Below are positions 44,270 through 52,534 of a DNA stretch of 64,000 nt, one piece after another (within the stretch, counting starts at the first letter, position 1; each line of letters opens with the position of its first letter). The notes below the pieces were generated by a model. It did no database searches. It saw nothing but the letters and a program-made list of their open reading frames with translations, and had not been told where the DNA came from. The DNA lies in contig NZ_PYUI01000016.1 in assembly GCF_003097355.1 (NCBI RefSeq), positions 1 through 64,000 on the forward strand, in the 5' to 3' direction. A program made the position numbers and the translations under genes. Source of the DNA: Arthrobacter sp. H-02-3 (GTDB taxonomy: Bacteria > Actinomycetota > Actinomycetes > Actinomycetales > Micrococcaceae).

Positions 44270-45193
44270 TTAGGGCGTCGAGACGACTGCGCGCGGTGTC
44301 TTCGCGTAGACGTCCTTGCTGACCGTGTAGCCCCGGCGGTCGATCGCCAGCGCACGCGCGTTGACGCTTGCAAGTTCGGCGCTGGAGAGTTTCTTGATGT
44401 TGACCAGATCCAGGAACTCCTGGTCTTCCCCGCCGACAGCCGTCACCTTGATGAGCCCGGTCCCGGCCGAGTAGTACTTGCGCTGGTGGCCGGCGGTGGG
44501 CGGATCCAGTGGATTGAACTCATCGATCACCATCACGTCGTCGTAGCACCCCGCGGGTACACAGACGCACAGGTGCTTGTACTTGACGTCGCCGCAGTCC
44601 AGGAAGTCCACGGAGGGGGCGTAGGCCTGGACGTAGGCAGGCGTGTTCCGATGCGGCTCGGCCTGCATCGCGATGCCGGCCCGGGCTTTGTCGATGCCGC
44701 TGATGAAGGTGCTGGGCGCGCCGGCAAGCTTGCCGTTCTCGTACTCCTCCGGATATTCGCCGAAGAGCCACACCGCCCCCGTGGTCGTCTGGGCGAAGAA
44801 GGCGAGCTCGGACTCCACGAGTTCACCGTCGGAGTAGTCGCGGTCCCAAATCGCGATCGTCGTGACGCCGTCGATCACCTTGGTCAGTCCCGTGACGGTG
44901 CTGACAACCTTGCGCACGGTGGTCCCGTCCGCGGAGACGACTTTGCCGGTGGTGGTGTACTGCATGCCGGGCTTGAGCGTGAGCCACTGGTTGTTGATCA
45001 GGGGCTTTGCCGGGAAGGCGGAACGGTTGAATGACAGCGCCGAACCGGGGCCGCACAGTTCCTGGGAACCGGTGGCCGCCGGCGCGGCGGCAGCCGCAGT
45101 TGCCGCCGTCGCCGCCGTCGCCGCCGTCAGCGACGCCACCACCAACAGGAACGCCGTGCCGTAAGCGGTGAATCTCTTACCTCGTGGAGTCAT
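44270..45193 (-). CDS. Secreted protein of unknown function
   Basis: A 307-residue protein not recognised as a known family. The N-terminus has a signal peptide: basic MTPRGKRF, a hydrophobic stretch and an Ala/Thr repeat (TAATAATAATAA, residues 23-34) encoded by a 9-base repeat. The mature part contains six or so Cys, including a cluster CVCVPAGC, and no catalytic motif that could be named. Middle region is rich in Thr, Val and Gly and may be beta-rich. The start has GAGAGG 8 nt upstream. It lies 31 bases after the RND permease gene on the same strand, so it could be part of that transcript. Confidence 0.7.
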   Translation of the reverse strand: MTPRGKRFTAYGTAFLLVVASLTAATAATAATAAAAAPAATGSQELCGPGSALSFNRSAFPAKPLINNQWLTLKPGMQYTTTGKVVSADGTTVRKVVSTVTGLTKVIDGVTTIAIWDRDYSDGELVESELAFFAQTTTGAVWLFGEYPEEYENGKLAGAPSTFISGIDKARAGIAMQAEPHRNTPAYVQAYAPSVDFLDCGDVKYKHLCVCVPAGCYDDVMVIDEFNPLDPPTAGHQRKYYSAGTGLIKVTAVGGEDQEFLDLVNIKKLSSAELASVNARALAIDRRGYTVSKDVYAKTPRAVVSTP

Positions 45194-45224: not shown

Positions 45225-48200
45225 CTATGCGGCGGGTACGGGCTCCGGCTGGCGGGGCTCGCGGTCACGTGCCGGACCCTTCTTGGCGAACCGCAAGTAG
45301 AGCGATGGAACGATGAACAGATTGACCAGTGTCGAGGTCACCAGTCCGCCGAGGATCACTACGGCCATCGGGTGCTCGATCTCATGACCCGGCCTGGTAC
45401 CCATCACCACCAGCGGCACTAGGGCCAGTGCGGTGGCCAGGGTGGTCATCAGGATCGGTGACAACCGCTCGGCGGCACCCCTCAGGACCAGGTCCCGGCC
45501 GAACGGCACGCCCTCGAACTGCTCCAGGTGCTGGCAATGGTTGATGAGCAGGATGCCGTTGCGCGCGGCGATGCCCATCACGGTCAGGAACCCGACCAGC
45601 GAGCCAAGGGACAGGATTCCGCCGCTCATGTGCGCGGCGATTACCCCGCCCACCAGTGCGACCGGCAGAGTCAGGATGGCGAGCGTGGCCAGGCGCCAGC
45701 TGCGGAATGCTGCCTGGAGCAGGAGGAACACCACAACGACGGCACCGATCGCGAAGAGGAGCAGCCGTTGGGAGGCGGCCTGCCGCTCTGCGTATTCGCC
45801 CAGGATGTCCGCGCTGTAGCCGGTGGGGAACTCCACCGATTTGAGTTCGGATTCCAGTTTCTCGACGACCCTCGCGAGGTCGCCTTCCTTGACGTTGGCG
45901 CTGACGTCCAGCCGCCGGGACCCTTCCGAACGCTCAATGACGTTGGGGGTGGGCTTCACCGAGATCCTGGCGACGTCGGCCACCCGGATCCGCTGTCCGC
46001 TCGGGGTGTCCAGGGGGAGGTTTTCGATGCTGGTGACGCTGGTCCGGATTTCGGGAGGACTCCAGACCTGGACGTCGTAGGCTTTGCCGTCGCGGTAGAC
46101 GTCGCCGACCTCCTCTCCGGAAACCATGGTGGCAGCGGCACGGCGGACGTCACCGGGCTTGAGCCCGTAGCGGTTGGCGGCGTCCAGGTCCACCTCGACA
46201 TTGACCTGCGGCACGTTGACCTGCAGGGCAACCTTGGCCCCGAGTGCCCCGTCGATGCCGGCGAGGACCGTCTTGACCTTGTCCGCCTGCTTCTTCAGCG
46301 TGTCCAGGTCATCGCCGTAGACGCGGACGACGATCGAGTAGCCCGTGCCGGTCAGCACCTCGCGGACACGTTCCTTGAGGTAGGTCTGGACGTCCCGGTG
46401 GATGCCGGGATAGCCGTCCACGATCTGCTGGATGGAGGCCAGGGTCTTGTCGTAGTCGACCGAGGGGTCGACGCTGATCCAGTTCTCACCGAAGTTGACG
46501 CCCACCACCTCGTCGGCGGCGAATGCCTGACCGATGTGGGACCCGCAGTTGTTGACGCCCGGAACGGTCATCAGCTCCTTGCAGGCCAGTTGACTCACGC
46601 GTACTTCTTCGGCGTTGGAGGTGCCGGGCTGCGTGACCCAGTGCATGAGGAAGTCGCGTTCCTTGAATGACGGCAGCAGCGACTGGCCCAGTAGCGGGGC
46701 CGCGATGATGCCCACGACGCCGAACGCTGCCACGGCGAGGTAGCCGGGGAGCGGCCGCCGCACAATGGGCCGGAGTGCGGCGCCGTACCAGCGTTTGAGG
46801 ACCCGGACCACCGGCGGATCCCGGTCTTCCAGCGTGGCATTGCGCAGGAAGATGTACGCCATGGCGGGCGTGACCGTGAGGGCCACCAGCATGGACGCCA
46901 TCACGGCGAGGGTGTAGGAGATGGCCAGGGGCCGGAAGAAGGCGCCTGTCAGTCCGTCCAGGAAGAAGATCGGCACAGTGGCTGCGACGATGATCAGCGT
47001 GGCGTAGACGATGGGGCCGCGAACCTCCAGGGAGGCATTGACCACCACGCGGGCGGTGCTTTCGGTTCCGCCGCTGGCACGGTGGTGCCGCAACCGCCGG
47101 ACGATGTTTTCGACGTCGATGATGGCGTCGTCCACCACCACCCCGACGGCGATCACCAGCCCGGCCAGCACCATGGTGTTGATCGTTCCTCCGGTCCAGT
47201 AGAGCACCAGGGCGGCGGCTGTCAGGGACAACGGGATGGCCATGACGCTGATCAGCGCGGTCCGCCATTGGAACAGGAAGACGCTCAGCACCAGGACCAC
47301 CAGGAAACAGCCCAGCAGGAGCGCGAGGCCCAGGTTGCCGAGAGACTCCTCGATGAACGAGGCGGGCCGGAACAACGTGGTGTCGACTGCGATCCCGGTC
47401 AGGCCGGGCTGCAGTTCCTGAAGGGCCGCCTCAACACCGCGCGTGACTTCGAGCGTGTTGCCCCACGGCAGCTTTTCGACAATCAGCATGAGGCCGGGGC
47501 CGCCGTTGATCACCGCGTCACCGATCAGCTGCTGGTGGTCTTCCACGACGTTTGCCACGTCGGCGAGCCGCAACGGGGGCAGCCCTTCACGCTCCTCCAG
47601 CGCCACCTGGGCAAGGTCCGCCGGGGACGTGATGGGCTGGACGTGCCTGATGCCCATGCTTTGGTTCGGCGTCTCGAGCGCCCCTCCGGTGCCGATCAGG
47701 GCGCCGGGGGAGTACTTGAGCAGGCCGGCGTCCAGGGCATCGGACGTGGAGTTCATGACGTTCTCCAGCGTGACGTCGTTGGCAGCCAGTTTGGCCGGAT
47801 CAACCTGGACCTGCAGCATTTGAAGGCGTTCACCCCAGATCGCCACATTCGCGACGCCCGGCACCCGGAGCAGGTGCGCCCTGATGTTCCAGTAGGAAAT
47901 CATGGACATCTCGATCAACGATCGGGTATCGGAGGAGAGCCCGATCTTCATGACGCGGCTGGTGGAGGACAGCGGCTGGAGCATCAGCGGCGGCGCCGCC
48001 CAGGTGGGCAGGGTCGGAATGACGGTTGCCATCCGCTCGGACACCAGTTGCCTGGCCGTGAGCAGGTCGGTTCCGGGCTTGAACTCCAGCACAATAGCGG
48101 ACAGCTGCGACACCGACTTCGACCGCATCTGGTCCAAACCGTCAATGCCGTTGAAGGCCTCCTCCATCGGAACCGTTACCAGCTCCTCAACTTCGGAGGC

Positions 48201-48368
48201 GGTGAGCCCCAGACACGCCGTCTGGACCTCGACACGGGGCGGCGCGAACTCCGGGAAAACATCCACCGAAGCACTGCTGAGCTGCGCGCCGCCCACGATC
48301 ATGAGGGCGGCGGCCATCGCAATGATGATCGACCGGAACCTCAGGCTCGCAGCGACAATCCGGCGCAT
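45225..48368 (-). CDS. RND-family efflux permease, second of the pair
   Basis: A 1047-residue RND transporter of the heavy-metal-efflux/CzcA-like class (12 predicted transmembrane helices, two large external loops). The TM4 proton-relay pair is intact: Asp413-Asp414 in VVVDDAIIDVEN; TM10 contains MGIAARNGILLINH. This bacterium has no classical outer membrane, so the partner architecture of Gram-negative tripartite pumps cannot apply directly. It starts one base after the stop of the small lipoprotein gene and follows a paralogous permease gene, all on the minus strand. The substrate is unknown; metal ions or hydrophobic compounds are possible. Confidence 0.93.
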   Translation of the reverse strand: MRRIVAASLRFRSIIIAMAAALMIVGGAQLSSASVDVFPEFAPPRVEVQTACLGLTASEVEELVTVPMEEAFNGIDGLDQMRSKSVSQLSAIVLEFKPGTDLLTARQLVSERMATVIPTLPTWAAPPLMLQPLSSTSRVMKIGLSSDTRSLIEMSMISYWNIRAHLLRVPGVANVAIWGERLQMLQVQVDPAKLAANDVTLENVMNSTSDALDAGLLKYSPGALIGTGGALETPNQSMGIRHVQPITSPADLAQVALEEREGLPPLRLADVANVVEDHQQLIGDAVINGGPGLMLIVEKLPWGNTLEVTRGVEAALQELQPGLTGIAVDTTLFRPASFIEESLGNLGLALLLGCFLVVLVLSVFLFQWRTALISVMAIPLSLTAAALVLYWTGGTINTMVLAGLVIAVGVVVDDAIIDVENIVRRLRHHRASGGTESTARVVVNASLEVRGPIVYATLIIVAATVPIFFLDGLTGAFFRPLAISYTLAVMASMLVALTVTPAMAYIFLRNATLEDRDPPVVRVLKRWYGAALRPIVRRPLPGYLAVAAFGVVGIIAAPLLGQSLLPSFKERDFLMHWVTQPGTSNAEEVRVSQLACKELMTVPGVNNCGSHIGQAFAADEVVGVNFGENWISVDPSVDYDKTLASIQQIVDGYPGIHRDVQTYLKERVREVLTGTGYSIVVRVYGDDLDTLKKQADKVKTVLAGIDGALGAKVALQVNVPQVNVEVDLDAANRYGLKPGDVRRAAATMVSGEEVGDVYRDGKAYDVQVWSPPEIRTSVTSIENLPLDTPSGQRIRVADVARISVKPTPNVIERSEGSRRLDVSANVKEGDLARVVEKLESELKSVEFPTGYSADILGEYAERQAASQRLLLFAIGAVVVVFLLLQAAFRSWRLATLAILTLPVALVGGVIAAHMSGGILSLGSLVGFLTVMGIAARNGILLINHCQHLEQFEGVPFGRDLVLRGAAERLSPILMTTLATALALVPLVVMGTRPGHEIEHPMAVVILGGLVTSTLVNLFIVPSLYLRFAKKGPARDREPRQPEPVPAA

Positions 48369-48369
48369 G

Positions 48370-48828
48370 TCAATGGGCCGTATCGAACTCGGCGCCGAAC
48401 AGTTCAGCCGCGCCGACGGTCACGACGGCGGTGCCCACCGCGGGCCCCGCCGAAGCGGTGACCACTCCGGACTCCACCTTGGCCACCGTGACCGGTTCCC
48501 GCTGGTAGACCCGCGGGGCCGGGTTGGTGTACACCCAGGTCTTGCCGCCGGCGTCGTAGAGCAGGGCCGCATAGGGCAGCAGGACGGCCGTCCCCGTGCC
48601 GGCCTTGACGGTATCGGTCTTCAGGTCCAGGCGCTCGATTCCCTTTTCGGTCAAGGTCAGTTTCGCGATGCCGGTCGCGGCATTCTTCTCCACCTTGGCG
48701 GGTTCGTTGGCCGAGACGGCGGCGGGCGTTGCCGCCGTCGTCTGGGCGCACGAGGGCAACGCGAACAGAAGGGCTGCGCAGACGGCGGCCGCCAGGGGCA
48801 GGCGCCGCAGGGGCTGTTGGCTGGTCAT
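48370..48828 (-). CDS. Small adaptor-like lipoprotein between two RND permeases
   Basis: A 152-residue protein with a signal peptide and lipobox ending at Cys27 (LPSCAQ), so probably lipid-anchored outside the membrane. Residues about 45-152 resemble only the membrane-proximal and C-terminal beta region of RND membrane fusion proteins (GIERLDLKTD..., VYTNPAPRVYQREPVTVAKV); the long alpha-hairpin and lipoyl domain are absent. That is much shorter than a normal 350-400 residue adaptor. The ATG at 48828 overlaps the upstream permease stop by 4 nt. Confidence 0.75.
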   Translation of the reverse strand: MTSQQPLRRLPLAAAVCAALLFALPSCAQTTAATPAAVSANEPAKVEKNAATGIAKLTLTEKGIERLDLKTDTVKAGTGTAVLLPYAALLYDAGGKTWVYTNPAPRVYQREPVTVAKVESGVVTASAGPAVGTAVVTVGAAELFGAEFDTAH

Positions 48829-51800
48829 TTTGCTTCCACCTTTTCCTGCATAACGGGCTGGACTGGAACTTCGGCTTCGTAGACTTCCGCCCACTCTTCG
48901 GGGGCGGACCGGGGCCCGAACCAGAGCGCGAGCAGGGGGAGCACGAAGATCCCGATGAGGGTTGTAGTGACGAGTCCGCCAACAATGATCAGGGCCATCG
49001 GCCCCAGGAGGGCCCCGCCCACGGCGCCGCCGAAGAGTCCCGGCGGGATGAGGATCGCCACCGTGATCAGGGCGGATTTCAGGATGGGCGACACCCGCTC
49101 CCGCGCTGCAGTCAAGACGGCTTCTTCACGGGACTCCTGCGGGGCCGCCCGCCACAGCTCATCTGTACGGGCCGAGAGCAATGCCGCGTTGCGGCCGGCG
49201 ACGGCCAGCAGCGCCGCAAACGCGGTGAGCGACAGCACGGTGATTGCATCCCCCGCGATCCACGCCGCTATGGCGGCCCCGGCCAGCGCGGCCGGCAGGG
49301 ACAGGAAGACGGCGAGGGCCAGCTTCCAGCTCCGCACGGCTGCCTGGAGCAGGAGCAGGATGGCAATGAGGGCTGCCGCGCCGATCCACAACACCAGGGA
49401 GTCTCCGGCCAGTTGTTCACTGTATTTGGTGGGGATTTCGGCGTGGTATTCCAGCGGGAACTGGATCTGCGAGATCGCCGCGTTGATGTCGCGCTGGATA
49501 TCCGCCAGCGGCCGCCCGCTGACGTCGGCCACGACGTCGATCCTCCGCGAGGTGTCATCGTGCATGATCACGACTTCGTTTGGTACGAGCCGGACGTCGG
49601 CGATCTGGCCCAGCTGGACCTGACCGCCGCTTGGCGTGTCGAGCAACAGTTCGCGGATGCTGGTCAGGTCGTCCCTGACGTCCACCGCGCCGCGCACCAC
49701 CACTTCAAAGACCTTTTGCTGTTCGAAGAGGTTGCCGACCACAATGCCCTGCATCAGGGCCGCGGCGGCGCGCCGCGCATCGCCGGGTTTGATGCCGACT
49801 TTCTGCGCCTCGGCGAGGTTGACTTCGACTTCGACGATGGGCGTCATGGCGCCGGCGTTGATGGTCGGGTTCTGCACGCCGTCAACCGTCTCAAGGGCCT
49901 TGCGGACCTCTTCGGCTTTTTCGCGCAGGACCGGCATGTCGGTGCCGTAGACGCGGACGGCGAATCCCGGATCCATGCTGCTGCGCTGTTCACCGATCTT
50001 CTGCTGGGAGTAGTTCACGACGTTGTGGGCGATGCCCGGGTAGCCTTGGACGACGTCGCGGACAGCTTTCTCCGTCTCGGTGAAATTGGCGTCCGGTGTG
50101 ATGGACACCCAGAGTTCCGCGGAGCTGTTACCCACCACCTGGTCGGAGGAAATGGCGCGGCCGATATGTCCGCCGACTCCCGAAACGCCCGGCAGTGCCC
50201 GCAGCTCTTCGGACGCCTTCGACGCCACCCTGCGGACTTCGTCGTTGGACGTGCCGGCCATGGAGTCCCATTGCACCAGGAGCGTCCGGTCCGGAATGGT
50301 CGGAACGACCGCACGGGTTCCGACCAGCTGGGATGCGGCGGCGAGTCCGAGCAGGCCAACGACGGCGACAGCAACGATGCCGACCGCGGTGCGGGACCGC
50401 GCGCCCTCGAGCGCCCGGTCATAGTAGGACTTGGCCCGGACAACAACGGGCGAGTCGGGCCGCGGGGCCCTCTCGCGGGGCAGCAGGAGATACGCCAGGA
50501 CAGGCGTCACGGACAAGCCCACCAGCATTGAGACGGCAAGCGTCAGCGCCATCGACCAGTACAACGGCTGGAAGAACGCGCCGCCGACTCCCGTGACGAA
50601 CAGCGTCGGCGCGAGCGCCATGGCCATGACGAGGGACCCGTGGAACAACGGGGTGCGGACGCTGCGGACCAGCTGCACCATGCGGAACCTGATGGTGGCT
50701 TCAGTCTCGGGTCCGGTGGCCCGCAGGGGCCGGCGCCGCTGCGCCTGAACATCCTCCACAATGTCTCCCACGATCACGGACACGCCCAGCAGGATGCCGG
50801 CGAGGATTGAGATGTTCAGTGTGGCGTCAAGCAGGTAGAGGACCGCCCCGGCCGCCATGACGGTAGTCGTGAGGGCCACAAGGGCGATCACCGCGACGCG
50901 CCAGGAACGGAAGAGCAGCCAGAAGAGCAGGATGGCGATCAGGAGGCTCACGAGCAGTGCCACGCCAAGACCGTCCACTGCATCCTGCAGGAACGAGGCG
51001 GGCCGGAAGACGGACGTATCCATCTGGATTCCGGACAGTCCCGGCTGCATGTCGTTCAAGGCAGCCTCGATATCCCTGGTGACCTGCAGCGCGCTGGTTC
51101 CGGGGAACTTCTCCACCACCAGCAGCAGGCCTGCATCCTGTCCGACGACGGCGTCGCCGATCAGCGGCTGGTGGTCCTCCTTCACCTGGGAAATCTCACC
51201 CAGGAGCATGGGAGAGCCGGAGTCTTCGACGCTCACCTTGGCGAGGTCGGCGGGCGTCCGGATGGGCAGGACGTGCTGAATGCCCAAGCGTTGGCTTGGC
51301 GACTCCACGAACCCGCCCGTGCCGGGCGTTGATGCCTCAAGGAAGCTCAGCGGAGACACCCAGACGGCGTTGCCCGTGGTTTTGATGACCTGCTCGAGCG
51401 TGATGCCCTTGTCGCGGAGTTGCGTGGGAGTGACTTCGACCTGGAGCTGCTGTTCGCGCTGACCCCAGATGGACACGTTGGCAACACCGGGAATGCCGAT
51501 GAGCCGCGGCTTGATCTTCCACCGGGCCAGGACGGACATTTCGATGCCGGAGAGCTGCTGGGAGGTCATCCGGACCATGAGCACGCGGCTGGTTGACGAC
51601 ATCGGCTGCATAATCAGTGGTGGCGCCGAGACGTTGGGCAGCGCGTGGGCCTGGGTCATGCGCTCGGCCACGAGTTGGCGCGCGCGCAGAAGGTCGGTGC
51701 CCGGCTCGAACACGAGCTCGATCGAGGACAGGCCGGGGACTGACTTGGACCGGATTTCATCAAGCCAGGCCACCCCGTTGAGAAGGTCGGCTTCCATGGG

Positions 51801-52001
51801 AGAGGTGATGAGCTGCTCGACCTCGGCGGCGGACAGGCCCAGGGCCTCGGTCTGGATCTCGACGTGCGCGGGCGCGAACTCGGGCATGCTGTCGACGGCG
51901 ATATGCGGGAGGTTCACCACCCCGAAGGCAATGAGTCCCGCGGCCAGGGCGAGGACCAGGATGCGGAACTGCATACTGAAACGGGTAATCCAGCCGAACA
52001 T
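48825..52001 (-). CDS. RND-family efflux permease, first of the pair, altered relay
   Basis: A 1058-residue RND transporter paralogous to the permease at 45225-48368, with the same layout and the N-terminal MPEFAPAHVEIQTEALGLS region. In TM4 the Asp-Asp pair is reduced to Gly412-Asp413 (VIVGDIVEDVQ). The TM10 region reads AVAGRNAALLSARTDEL and is also less conserved. So it may be a non-pumping partner of the second permease, or use another coupling. ATG at 52001 is 2 nt after the stop of a small ORF and has no ribosome site of its own. Overlaps the lipoprotein gene by 4 nt. Confidence 0.9.
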   Translation of the reverse strand: MFGWITRFSMQFRILVLALAAGLIAFGVVNLPHIAVDSMPEFAPAHVEIQTEALGLSAAEVEQLITSPMEADLLNGVAWLDEIRSKSVPGLSSIELVFEPGTDLLRARQLVAERMTQAHALPNVSAPPLIMQPMSSTSRVLMVRMTSQQLSGIEMSVLARWKIKPRLIGIPGVANVSIWGQREQQLQVEVTPTQLRDKGITLEQVIKTTGNAVWVSPLSFLEASTPGTGGFVESPSQRLGIQHVLPIRTPADLAKVSVEDSGSPMLLGEISQVKEDHQPLIGDAVVGQDAGLLLVVEKFPGTSALQVTRDIEAALNDMQPGLSGIQMDTSVFRPASFLQDAVDGLGVALLVSLLIAILLFWLLFRSWRVAVIALVALTTTVMAAGAVLYLLDATLNISILAGILLGVSVIVGDIVEDVQAQRRRPLRATGPETEATIRFRMVQLVRSVRTPLFHGSLVMAMALAPTLFVTGVGGAFFQPLYWSMALTLAVSMLVGLSVTPVLAYLLLPRERAPRPDSPVVVRAKSYYDRALEGARSRTAVGIVAVAVVGLLGLAAASQLVGTRAVVPTIPDRTLLVQWDSMAGTSNDEVRRVASKASEELRALPGVSGVGGHIGRAISSDQVVGNSSAELWVSITPDANFTETEKAVRDVVQGYPGIAHNVVNYSQQKIGEQRSSMDPGFAVRVYGTDMPVLREKAEEVRKALETVDGVQNPTINAGAMTPIVEVEVNLAEAQKVGIKPGDARRAAAALMQGIVVGNLFEQQKVFEVVVRGAVDVRDDLTSIRELLLDTPSGGQVQLGQIADVRLVPNEVVIMHDDTSRRIDVVADVSGRPLADIQRDINAAISQIQFPLEYHAEIPTKYSEQLAGDSLVLWIGAAALIAILLLLQAAVRSWKLALAVFLSLPAALAGAAIAAWIAGDAITVLSLTAFAALLAVAGRNAALLSARTDELWRAAPQESREEAVLTAARERVSPILKSALITVAILIPPGLFGGAVGGALLGPMALIIVGGLVTTTLIGIFVLPLLALWFGPRSAPEEWAEVYEAEVPVQPVMQEKVEAK

Positions 52002-52003
52002 GG

Positions 52004-52090
52004 CTAGGCCTGTTCCAGGGGGCCGCCGCGGTACGGGCGGGCACTGAGGGTTTTTGCTGGTTGCATAGAAGTAGTGCGCAAGTGACTCAT
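52004..52090 (-). CDS. 28-residue leader ORF upstream of the RND genes
   Basis: ATG at 52090 is preceded by GAGGAG with 6 nt spacing, a near-ideal ribosome site. The 28 codons encode MSHLRTTSMQPA, then a stretch with basic and Pro/Gly residues, ending GPLEQA, and stop 2 nt before the permease ATG, which itself lacks a ribosome site. This is the pattern of a translationally coupled leader peptide. It has no similarity that could be named, and it might simply serve to start ribosomes for the permease. Confidence 0.55.
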   Translation of the reverse strand: MSHLRTTSMQPAKTLSARPYRGGPLEQA

Positions 52091-52534
52091 GACAGGCTCC
52101 TCAACCCGAGACCATGTGCGAATCCCCCCGGCGAGATCCCAATTGCTGACCTATCTCGAATGGTGTTCCCCTTTGAAGTGTTTGGCAAGCAGAAATTGTG
52201 AGGCTGCATCGGGTGGATTCATGGGTATTTCCCAGTTAAGCGGCATATAATGCGTTTTTTTATTCGCGACCACCCGGAGGGGCCCAAAAACCGCCGCTTC
52301 CCACCCGGGTGATGTTGGCATTTCTGCTTGTTTTCCTTTGGTCGCTCCCTGAATTTTCGTTTCCACTACTTGCCGGCGGCCATTTTGGGCTCACCGTAGG
52401 TACCGCGGGTCCGCAGGTGAGGCATTTATAACAATTTCGGGCACAATCGCCCGCACGGCGGGGGACCGGTCCGTGCGCCCGCGACTCCCGGGCCGCATCG
52501 GGCTGTCGTTTCAGCGCGAATCAGCCCGAGGGGC
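52091..52534. other. AT-richer non-coding region upstream of the RND locus
   Basis: No convincing gene was found. Base composition is clearly less GC-rich than the flanks. It contains CACCCGGGTG, a 10-base palindrome at 52302-52311, with a related half-site CCACCCGG at 52269-52276; an inverted pair CTCACC (52390-52395) and GGTGAG (52416-52421); and TTTATA near 52423-52428, a -10-like element for the minus strand. The promoter of the RND genes and its control are expected here. Confidence 0.5.
52302..52311. promoter_or_regulatory. 10-base palindrome upstream of the RND genes
   Basis: CACCCGGGTG is self-complementary, and the half-site CCACCCGG recurs 32 bases away at 52269-52276. A repressor binding two sites is possible, but no linked regulator gene exists. 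Confidence 0.25.

Follow-up and report, generated by a model that had tools for sequence, protein, structure and literature searches.

RND pumps are usually pictured as three equal protomers rotating through proton-driven states. A locus of Arthrobacter sp. H-02-3, in which two RND permeases are separated by a very small lipoprotein and one of the two lacks an aspartate of the TM4 relay pair, raises the question of what would power such a pump and what its second permease would contribute. The window analysed is a stretch of 64,000 nucleotides (contig NZ_PYUI01000016.1, positions 1 to 64,000), in which permease A, lipoprotein LP and permease B form a single minus-strand operon with the following features, given in the direction of transcription:

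52091..52113, minus strand: conserved block GGTCTC..GGAGCCTG, preceding the upstream ORF and taken as a ribosome-binding region; its alignment columns are conserved in at least 90% of 23 loci
52004..52090, minus strand: upstream ORF of 28 codons, stopping 2 bases ahead of the ATG of A
48825..52001, minus strand: permease A, 1058 aa, an apparently relay-degraded RND permease with Gly412-Asp413, Arg937 in TM10 and Arg969
50763..50768, minus strand: codons Gly412-Asp413 of A, at AcrB Asp407-Asp408 in the alignment to AcrB, CusA, MdtB and MdtC
48370..48828, minus strand: predicted mini-adaptor lipoprotein LP, 152 aa; signal peptide, lipobox Cys27, then the membrane-proximal domain alone
45225..48368, minus strand: permease B, 1047 aa, an apparently relay-intact RND permease with Asp413-Asp414 and an extra Asp418
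47127..47132, minus strand: codons Asp413-Asp414 of B, at AcrB Asp407-Asp408
44270..45193, minus strand: gene D, a secreted 307-aa protein, 31 bases past B, of no named family

The initial annotation, made from the letters of the window, had described two RND permeases split only by a 152-residue lipoprotein, with genes overlapping or 1 base apart, and this description holds in order and spacing: LP and A share 4 bases (ATGA), the ATG of the one overlapping the stop of the other, and B starts 1 base past LP. At A's end of the locus its coordinate needs correction, as 52090 is the start of the upstream ORF and A starts at 52001. Absent from that annotation were gene D and a second paralogous copy of the locus elsewhere in the H-02-3 genome (G000:C24).

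Distribution and descent of the gene trio

All 21 loci read in the genus have the A-LP-B order, as do 78 of 80 named loci; in the remaining two the contig ends after LP. The named loci are the best 80 of 259 and were sampled by relatedness to A, so that a solitary B outside the phylum would escape. Arthrobacter globiformis NBRC 12137 (L111) and A. pascens DSM 20545 (L088) are among the carriers of the trio. The loci span Actinomycetota, Chloroflexi, KSB1, Geobacter, Bacteroidetes, Pirellulales, Latescibacterota and Rokubacteria. A survey of 396 genomes of the phylum found B in 17 and LP in 15. Every genome with LP also contains B; A adjoins LP in all 15 and B adjoins LP in 14, and in the remaining one (G143) LP lies at a contig end and a fragment of B opens another contig. 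In G262 and G445, which have B only, B is cut on its N-terminal side by a contig end, and no genome among the 396 has LP and B but lacks A. These genomes support a tight genetic pairing of A and B. An isolated N-terminal half of A lies in two genomes of the genus (G013 and G058), where the 16 kb read contains neither LP nor B. We take these halves to be decay. They count against an obligate pairing of A and B.

Membership of the RND superfamily is clear from ACR_tran (PF00873), which A and B match at 456 and 713 bits, above the gathering score over ~1020 residues; a low-confidence structural model (pLDDT 63, made for A only) has the RND fold, with a TM of about 0.6 to OqxB, CusA and AcrB. Within one locus, A and B are on average 47% identical. 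In a tree built with the TM4 columns left out, A (43 rows) and B (36 rows) fall on opposite sides of one branch (SH-aLRT 99), most simply explained by one old duplication.

The two permeases diverge unequally, with A more diverged than B in 630 of 630 pairs from 36 loci. The values of dN/dS are 0.11–0.14 for A versus 0.06–0.085 for B (3 pairs each), which shows A to be still under purifying selection. Conservation across the 36 loci is lower in A than in B for TM (0.60 vs 0.76) and PC1 (0.58 vs 0.78), and is equal or higher in A for PN1 (0.79 vs 0.76) and the docking domain DN (0.74 vs 0.63). The divergence of A is correlated with that of B (Mantel r 0.73); this correlation, like adjacency and co-inheritance, would also fit two homotrimers made together.

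Proton relay of the two permeases

TM4 reads VIVGDIVED in A (G412-D413) and VVVDDAIID in B (D413-D414), as initially annotated. In the genus, A has G-D vs D-D in B at 20 of 21 loci, the remaining locus being T-D vs D-D; since the 4-base A/LP overlap also recurs in 21 of 21 genus loci, that of the window included, the pattern of the locus is not due to chance. Among unique sequences, B is D-D in 95 of 95, whereas A is D-D in 31 of 103 and has lost the first Asp (AcrB 407) in 68; the other motifs of A are G-D (62), T-D (3), A-D (2), D-E (2), D-N (1), D-Q (1) and N-D (1). At least 8 changes of state were counted for A across 43 tree rows, at least 5 of them between D-D and not D-D. On the sequences read, the predicted proton relay is kept by B without exception and has been lost or altered by A several times. 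In most of the distant phyla A is still D-D, so the asymmetry of the motif does not go back to the origin of the family; Lentzea nigeriaca (L136) is one species whose A has kept D-D.

The position that A has lost is a widely retained one. An Asp occupies AcrB 407 in AcrB, AcrD, AcrF, MdtF, MdtB, MdtC, CusA and the lone RND of H-02-3, and the TM4 site of ZneA reads VDG. A Gly at this position in a proven stand-alone pump, which the initial annotation had named as contrary evidence, was found in none of AcrB, AcrD, AcrF, MdtF, CusA and ZneA. The Asp kept by A (AcrB 408; 111 of 115 sequences) is replaced by Ala in CusA and by Gly in ZneA. A also retains the TM10 Arg in 114 and the TM11 Arg in 110 of 115 sequences, with locus L167 lacking both as well. 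An extra TM4 Asp (AcrB 412; Asp417 in A) is found in 67 of 68 unique A sequences without Asp407, in 22 of the 35 other A sequences and in 94 of 95 unique B sequences. A Fisher test relating the loss of Asp407 to the 412 Asp was set aside, as it ignores relatedness.

The initial annotation had likened the pair to an active and a regulatory permease as in MdtBC. The MdtABC/MuxABC heterotrimers (HAE-1) do have two co-encoded, diverged permeases (MdtB and MdtC are 51% identical), and a relay mutation in MdtB is reported to be more harmful than the same one in MdtC (PMC4338810). At the level of the relay the likeness fails: MdtB and MdtC are both D-D and sit with AcrB on the tree, away from A and B (on long outgroup branches), which rules out MdtBC as a system of the same kind. 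No gene lies between mdtB and mdtC, whereas LP lies between A and B, and MdtABC works with a full adaptor and TolC (PMC4338810). MdtBC is, by comparison of the two systems, a functional analogy only. In a large RND phylogeny (PMC10872679), MdtABC and MuxABC form clade B and tandem permease pairs are reported in clade B only; that work excluded Actinobacteria and Chloroflexi, both of which are among the host groups of the present locus.

A predicted one-domain adaptor and its cell envelope

LP has a lipobox (..LPSC) with an invariant Cys27, and ~110 of its 152 aa lie in the modelled domain. The AF2 model matches the membrane-proximal domain of ZneB (Z 11.5 over 95 residues) and CusB (Z 10.8 over 93), and that part of BesA at Z 8.1 over 80 residues; Foldseek gave a best E of 0.0024, with none <0.001, and 19 of the top 21 rows are RND-type adaptors or adaptor complexes. 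By sequence the relationship is faint, with 14.7 bits on TIGR01730 (cut-off 94.9) and a best E of 0.079, not significant, for the LP profile against the PDB (an efflux transporter entry). Barrel, lipoyl and hairpin domains are lacking. As modelled, LP is an RND adaptor cut down to its membrane-proximal domain, and the earlier description of a membrane fusion protein reduced to its C-terminal part stands as to the missing hairpin but is incomplete, as the N-terminal segment of that domain is kept too. Longer forms (245–272 aa) in some Chloroflexi, Rokubacteria and Meiothermus have, by eye, an apparent added barrel-like insert. BesA of Borrelia is likewise a lipidated RND adaptor without an alpha-hairpin (PMC3807786), but it keeps the lipoyl and beta-barrel domains and serves the TolC-like BesC; LP has neither domain.

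Proposed as an adaptation to a cell without outer membrane, the mini-adaptor turns out to occur in diderm loci too (KSB1, Geobacter, Bacteroidetes, Pirellulales and Latescibacterota; MAG contigs, except for a MAG chromosome in Latescibacterota), three of which have outer-membrane porin genes downstream, and the reading as such an adaptation is rejected. The H-02-3 genome gave no match to a TolC-type channel (OEP, PF02321) at E 0.01 and none to RND_mfp above cut-off. In the other groups, neither OEP nor any metal family is among the 25 commonest of 86 families (90 flanking ORFs of 112 listed, 20 loci). A metal ATPase context was considered and rejected, ten flanking ORFs in other phyla, mostly long ones, being DUF5916, GGDEF/EAL, helicase, UvrB, BTAD, PMT_2, an ABC pair or unmatched.

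Metal-efflux (HME-RND) systems such as CusCFBA, ZneCAB and CzcCBA are the nearest in several comparisons: of the NCBIfam models, TIGR00914 (CusA/CzcA) gives the highest score for both A and B, both have ZneA as top PDB match, and the folds closest to LP are ZneB and CusB. The differences are that the TIGR00914 scores (349.1 bits for A, 566.7 for B) are under the 701.45 cut-off, that HME systems have one permease rather than two, and that here the adaptor is reduced to one domain in a genome lacking a TolC-type channel match. The CusA-type Met triad (Cu/Ag members only) is found in neither permease; in an alignment at 22–28% identity to CusA, Met573/623/672 correspond to His, Phe/Ala and Glu in B and mostly to Gln, Ser and a variable residue in A, and a metal substrate is not supported by these residues. 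A search of open-licence papers gave no apparent description of this two-permease, mini-adaptor pump.

Candidate readings of the pump

We consider it rather probable that the locus encodes a heteromeric, proton-driven RND pump in which B supplies the power, A is a partner with a degraded relay and LP is a minimal adaptor. A and B would assemble as one heterotrimer whose cycle is driven by proton uptake at the TM4 aspartates of B, while A, carried through the cycle by its neighbours, would give a substrate path or regulation rather than a proton step of its own. LP would sit on the porter domains and stabilise or stimulate the trimer. A duct to a TolC-type channel is beyond what LP could form, so substrate would be released outside the cytoplasmic membrane, with secreted D as a possible recipient or helper.

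Two separate homotrimeric pumps from one operon, with A running an altered relay of Asp413, Asp417 and the TM10/TM11 arginines, appear unlikely. The near-constant retention in A of the 408 Asp and both arginines, with the 412 Asp in nearly all A sequences without Asp407, means that A could run a different, working relay. However, the Asp lost is the one that AcrB, CusA and ZneA keep, the one retained is that replaced in CusA and ZneA, the 412 Asp is shared with B and is thus a family trait rather than an A-specific compensation, and in some A sequences it is the second acid that has been replaced (by N, Q or E). Quite unlikely is that A is a non-transporting pseudo-transporter without a substrate path, regulatory or structural, which holds LP and B together or sets the rate of B: its faster evolution is centred on the TM region and the C-terminal porter domains, with the docking and N-terminal porter domains conserved, and its relay was lost several times on the tree, but its dN/dS is still low. 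Drift in a redundant paralogue A heading for loss, with no mechanistic consequence, is very improbable, as the half-length remnants in two genomes and the frameshifted LP and B of L042/L068 (one genome, two entries), where A is the intact gene, are set against a whole A in 78 of 78 named loci with all three genes (best 80 of 259), purifying selection on A, and the 396 phylum genomes, none with LP and B but without A and the two B-only ones contig-cut.

The B-powered heteromeric pump may extend to a broader picture, which we hold tentatively: a distinct cross-phylum lineage of obligate two-permease RND pumps, with proton coupling repeatedly switched off in the same subunit, a trimer with one or two powered protomers, LP as an allosteric activator cap rather than a duct in monoderms and diderms, and a dedicated secreted partner in D. 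A natural pump with one permease lacking the shared proton-carrying Asp would be a ready test of the number of powered protomers required by a trimer and of what an unpowered protomer adds, its partner B never losing the Asp in the sequences read. A membrane-proximal-only adaptor, in diderms included, would likewise split the activating from the duct-building role of RND adaptors.

Gene D gave no relative worth naming in Pfam, NCBIfam or the PDB; it goes with the trio in 60 of 119 loci, across phyla. Upstream of A, Rfam gave no match in the window at gathering score, and a leader hairpin is not claimed, as folding was no better than shuffles in 2 of 3 sequences tried. An ORF is present at the place of the upstream ORF in 23 of 23 group-1 loci read, its stop lying 2 bases ahead of the start of A in 17 of them.

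Layout of the locus and its genome

The window carries two RND permeases, one with a degraded proton relay (A) and one with an intact relay (B), separated by a mini-adaptor lipoprotein (LP) and followed by a gene for a secreted protein (D). The locus is read as a putative RND pump whose two permeases divide the labour, and comprises the following features:

52090-52004, minus strand: upstream ORF of 28 codons, stop 2 bases 5' of the A start
52001-48825, minus strand: permease A, full-length ACR_tran protein
48828-48370, minus strand: lipoprotein LP, between A and B
48368-45225, minus strand: permease B, full-length ACR_tran protein
45193-44270, minus strand: secreted protein D, last in the operon, unmatched in Pfam and NCBIfam

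A and LP overlap in an ATGA junction, with gaps of 1 base between LP and B and 31 bases between B and D. Both permeases have their best NCBIfam-type score with the CusA/CzcA model, yet fall under its cut-off. An ORF of 17–29 codons, ending 2–13 bases before A and encoding a poorly conserved peptide, was present in all 23 group-1 loci read and looks like a translationally coupled leader of A. In the window, a conserved block GGTCTC..GGAGCCTGnnATG precedes this ORF, block and ORF together covering 52004-52113 (minus strand).

The host genome (4.7 Mb, 44 contigs) encodes five ACR_tran proteins, namely the window pair, a second pair on another contig and one lone RND permease. The second pair belongs to a diverged A-LP-B copy with its own LP and D also at the 3' side (G000:C24:13650-21345, L036). 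No TolC-type channel was matched and no RND_mfp adaptor scored above the cut-off in this genome.

Distribution and gene order

Among 61 genomes of the genus, including the host, A and B are present in 17. Two others (G013 and G058; L158 and L159) hold the N-terminal half of A alone, with neither LP nor B in the 16 kb read, and these halves are probably remnants, while a piece of A in G027 is cut by its contig. All 21 loci first read (the window and 20 fetched) agree in gene order, in strand and in the 4-base overlap of A with LP; LP and B are frameshifted in one of them (L042). In a wider set of 396 phylum genomes, 15 carry LP, each with A adjoining it, and 17 carry B; the two genomes with B alone (G262, G445) have it truncated by a contig end.

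A scan of named genomes with the A alignment gave 259 relatives, the best 80 of which were kept; this set overlaps in part with the genus and phylum sets, the same genomes being counted in both. A, LP and B occur in the same order in 78 of these 80 loci, and in the other two (L062, L109) the contig ends after LP. The named relatives nearest to the host genome are Arthrobacter and Pseudarthrobacter, and by record title the taxa of the best 80 include Arthrobacter, Cryobacterium, Agromyces, Catellatospora, Lentzea and Streptosporangiaceae, together with Chloroflexi, Rokubacteria, KSB1, Pirellulales, Geobacter, Bacteroidetes, Latescibacterota and Meiothermus, although single assignments may be wrong as many of these loci are metagenome-assembled genomes. 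One locus (L169, G084:C68) has an extra LP upstream of A in addition to the usual one, an arrangement that would fit an earlier state with one adaptor per permease. In a Chloroflexi locus, A and LP are separated by the genes of an ABC transporter, one for its ATPase and one for an ABC-2 membrane protein (L123, 9213-11605, plus strand).

The mini-adaptor and the secreted protein

LP consists of a conserved lipobox Cys followed by about 125 residues, and had no significant Pfam match. Its AlphaFold2 model (pLDDT 75, at least 80 in every ten-residue block from 41 to 140) aligns to both ends of the ZneB (Z 11.5 over 95 residues) and CusB (Z 10.8 over 93 residues) chains, a match to the membrane-proximal domain, which in these adaptors is formed by N- and C-terminal segments; LP lacks the barrel, lipoyl and hairpin domains. 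The LPs of KSB1 (L129, L132), Geobacter, Bacteroidetes and Latescibacterota are just as minimal (142–156 aa), some of those from Chloroflexi, Rokubacteria and Meiothermus reach 245–272 aa with an insert that is barrel-like by eye, and no obvious lipobox was seen in the LPs of L116, L134 and L175. A Porin_O_P gene lies 24 bases after B in Bacteroidetes locus L133 and a Porin_5 gene downstream in L129 and L132; these hosts should possess an outer membrane, with the same mini-adaptor. DUF5916 proteins are encoded upstream in L128, L129, L132 and L133.

By eye, the N-terminus of D resembles a signal sequence; searches of Pfam, NCBIfam and the PDB gave no known family or structural relative. Homologues occur in 60 of 119 loci from several phyla (the 119 including duplicates between two collections). 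Placed by script and by eye, 47 follow B on its strand (two of these in the frameshifted genome), 12 precede A, one of them in the opposite orientation, and the D of L137 sits between A and LP, the script having assigned it after B because B is cut there. Relatives of any strength were found in 37 of 246 phylum genomes. The 14 matches above 300 bits fall in 13 genomes, all carrying the trio or part of it, and two of them (G101, G002) lie away from it. Weaker relatives are also found where the trio is absent, and in G280 a weaker relative is the only one despite the presence of the trio.

Proton relay and a proposed division of labour

The TM4 residues reported in the initial annotation, Gly412-Asp413 in A and Asp413-Asp414 in B, are borne out. 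In alignment with AcrB, positions 407/408 read D-D in AcrB, AcrD, AcrF, MdtF, MdtB, MdtC and the lone RND permease and D-A in CusA, with VDG in ZneA; the Asp common to the AcrB group, CusA and ZneA makes 407 the shared relay residue, and this is the relay position lost most often in the family. B is D-D in 95/95 unique sequences. The 103 unique A sequences comprise G-D (62), D-D (31), T-D (3), A-D (2), D-E (2) and one each of D-N, D-Q and N-D. The Gly form is found in Arthrobacter and nearer relatives and most of the distant A are D-D, so that the asymmetry looks derived, and it arose more than once. In a quick LG+G4 tree built without the TM4 columns from 43 A rows and 36 B rows, A and B lie on opposite sides of one branch (SH-aLRT 99), and the relay state in A changed at least eight times, at least five of these between D-D and another state. 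One old duplication would explain this most simply but is not proven, as outgroup branches are long, basal forks are uncertain and one A row (L125) falls outside the A clade with CusA as outgroup.

A is not a pseudogene: comparison with three relatives gave dN/dS values of 0.11–0.14 for A, 0.06–0.085 for B and 0.15–0.21 for LP, and comparison with two gave 0.12–0.15 for D. Over 36 loci, A diverged more than B in 630/630 pairs, with correlated distances (Mantel r 0.73, 0/2000 permutations as high). With domain borders that we take from AcrB numbering, the extra divergence lies in the TM and C-terminal porter domains, while A is at least as conserved as B in the first porter domain and N-terminal docking domain. 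This pattern would be expected of a subunit that still fits into the trimer but no longer needs a proton step of its own, though it does not prove it.

In the proposed reading, B would be the motor of the pump, A a partner with degraded coupling, LP an activating cap and D a secreted helper. Literature support for unequal relays comes from the two-permease pump MdtBC, in which the MdtB relay weighs more than that of MdtC, which is thought to bind substrates (PMC4338810). AcrB is reported to lose its function when a relay residue is substituted (PMC8277102). Tandem permeases were reported only in the MdtBC clade in a survey that had excluded Actinobacteria and Chloroflexi (PMC10872679). No description of the A-LP-B locus was seen among the open-licence papers listed, including passages of PMC10872679, PMC8277102, PMC4338810 and PMC3807786.

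At AcrB 940, Arg replaces Lys in all but one family sequence read, and an additional Asp occurs at AcrB 412 in 100/115 A and 105/106 B. The lone RND permease of the host (G000:C7:64721-67768, L005) has Asp-Asp in TM4 and Thr at AcrB Lys940; relatives sharing about 25% identity with A appear in 61/61 genus genomes searched, 54 whole and 7 in pieces as counted by eye.
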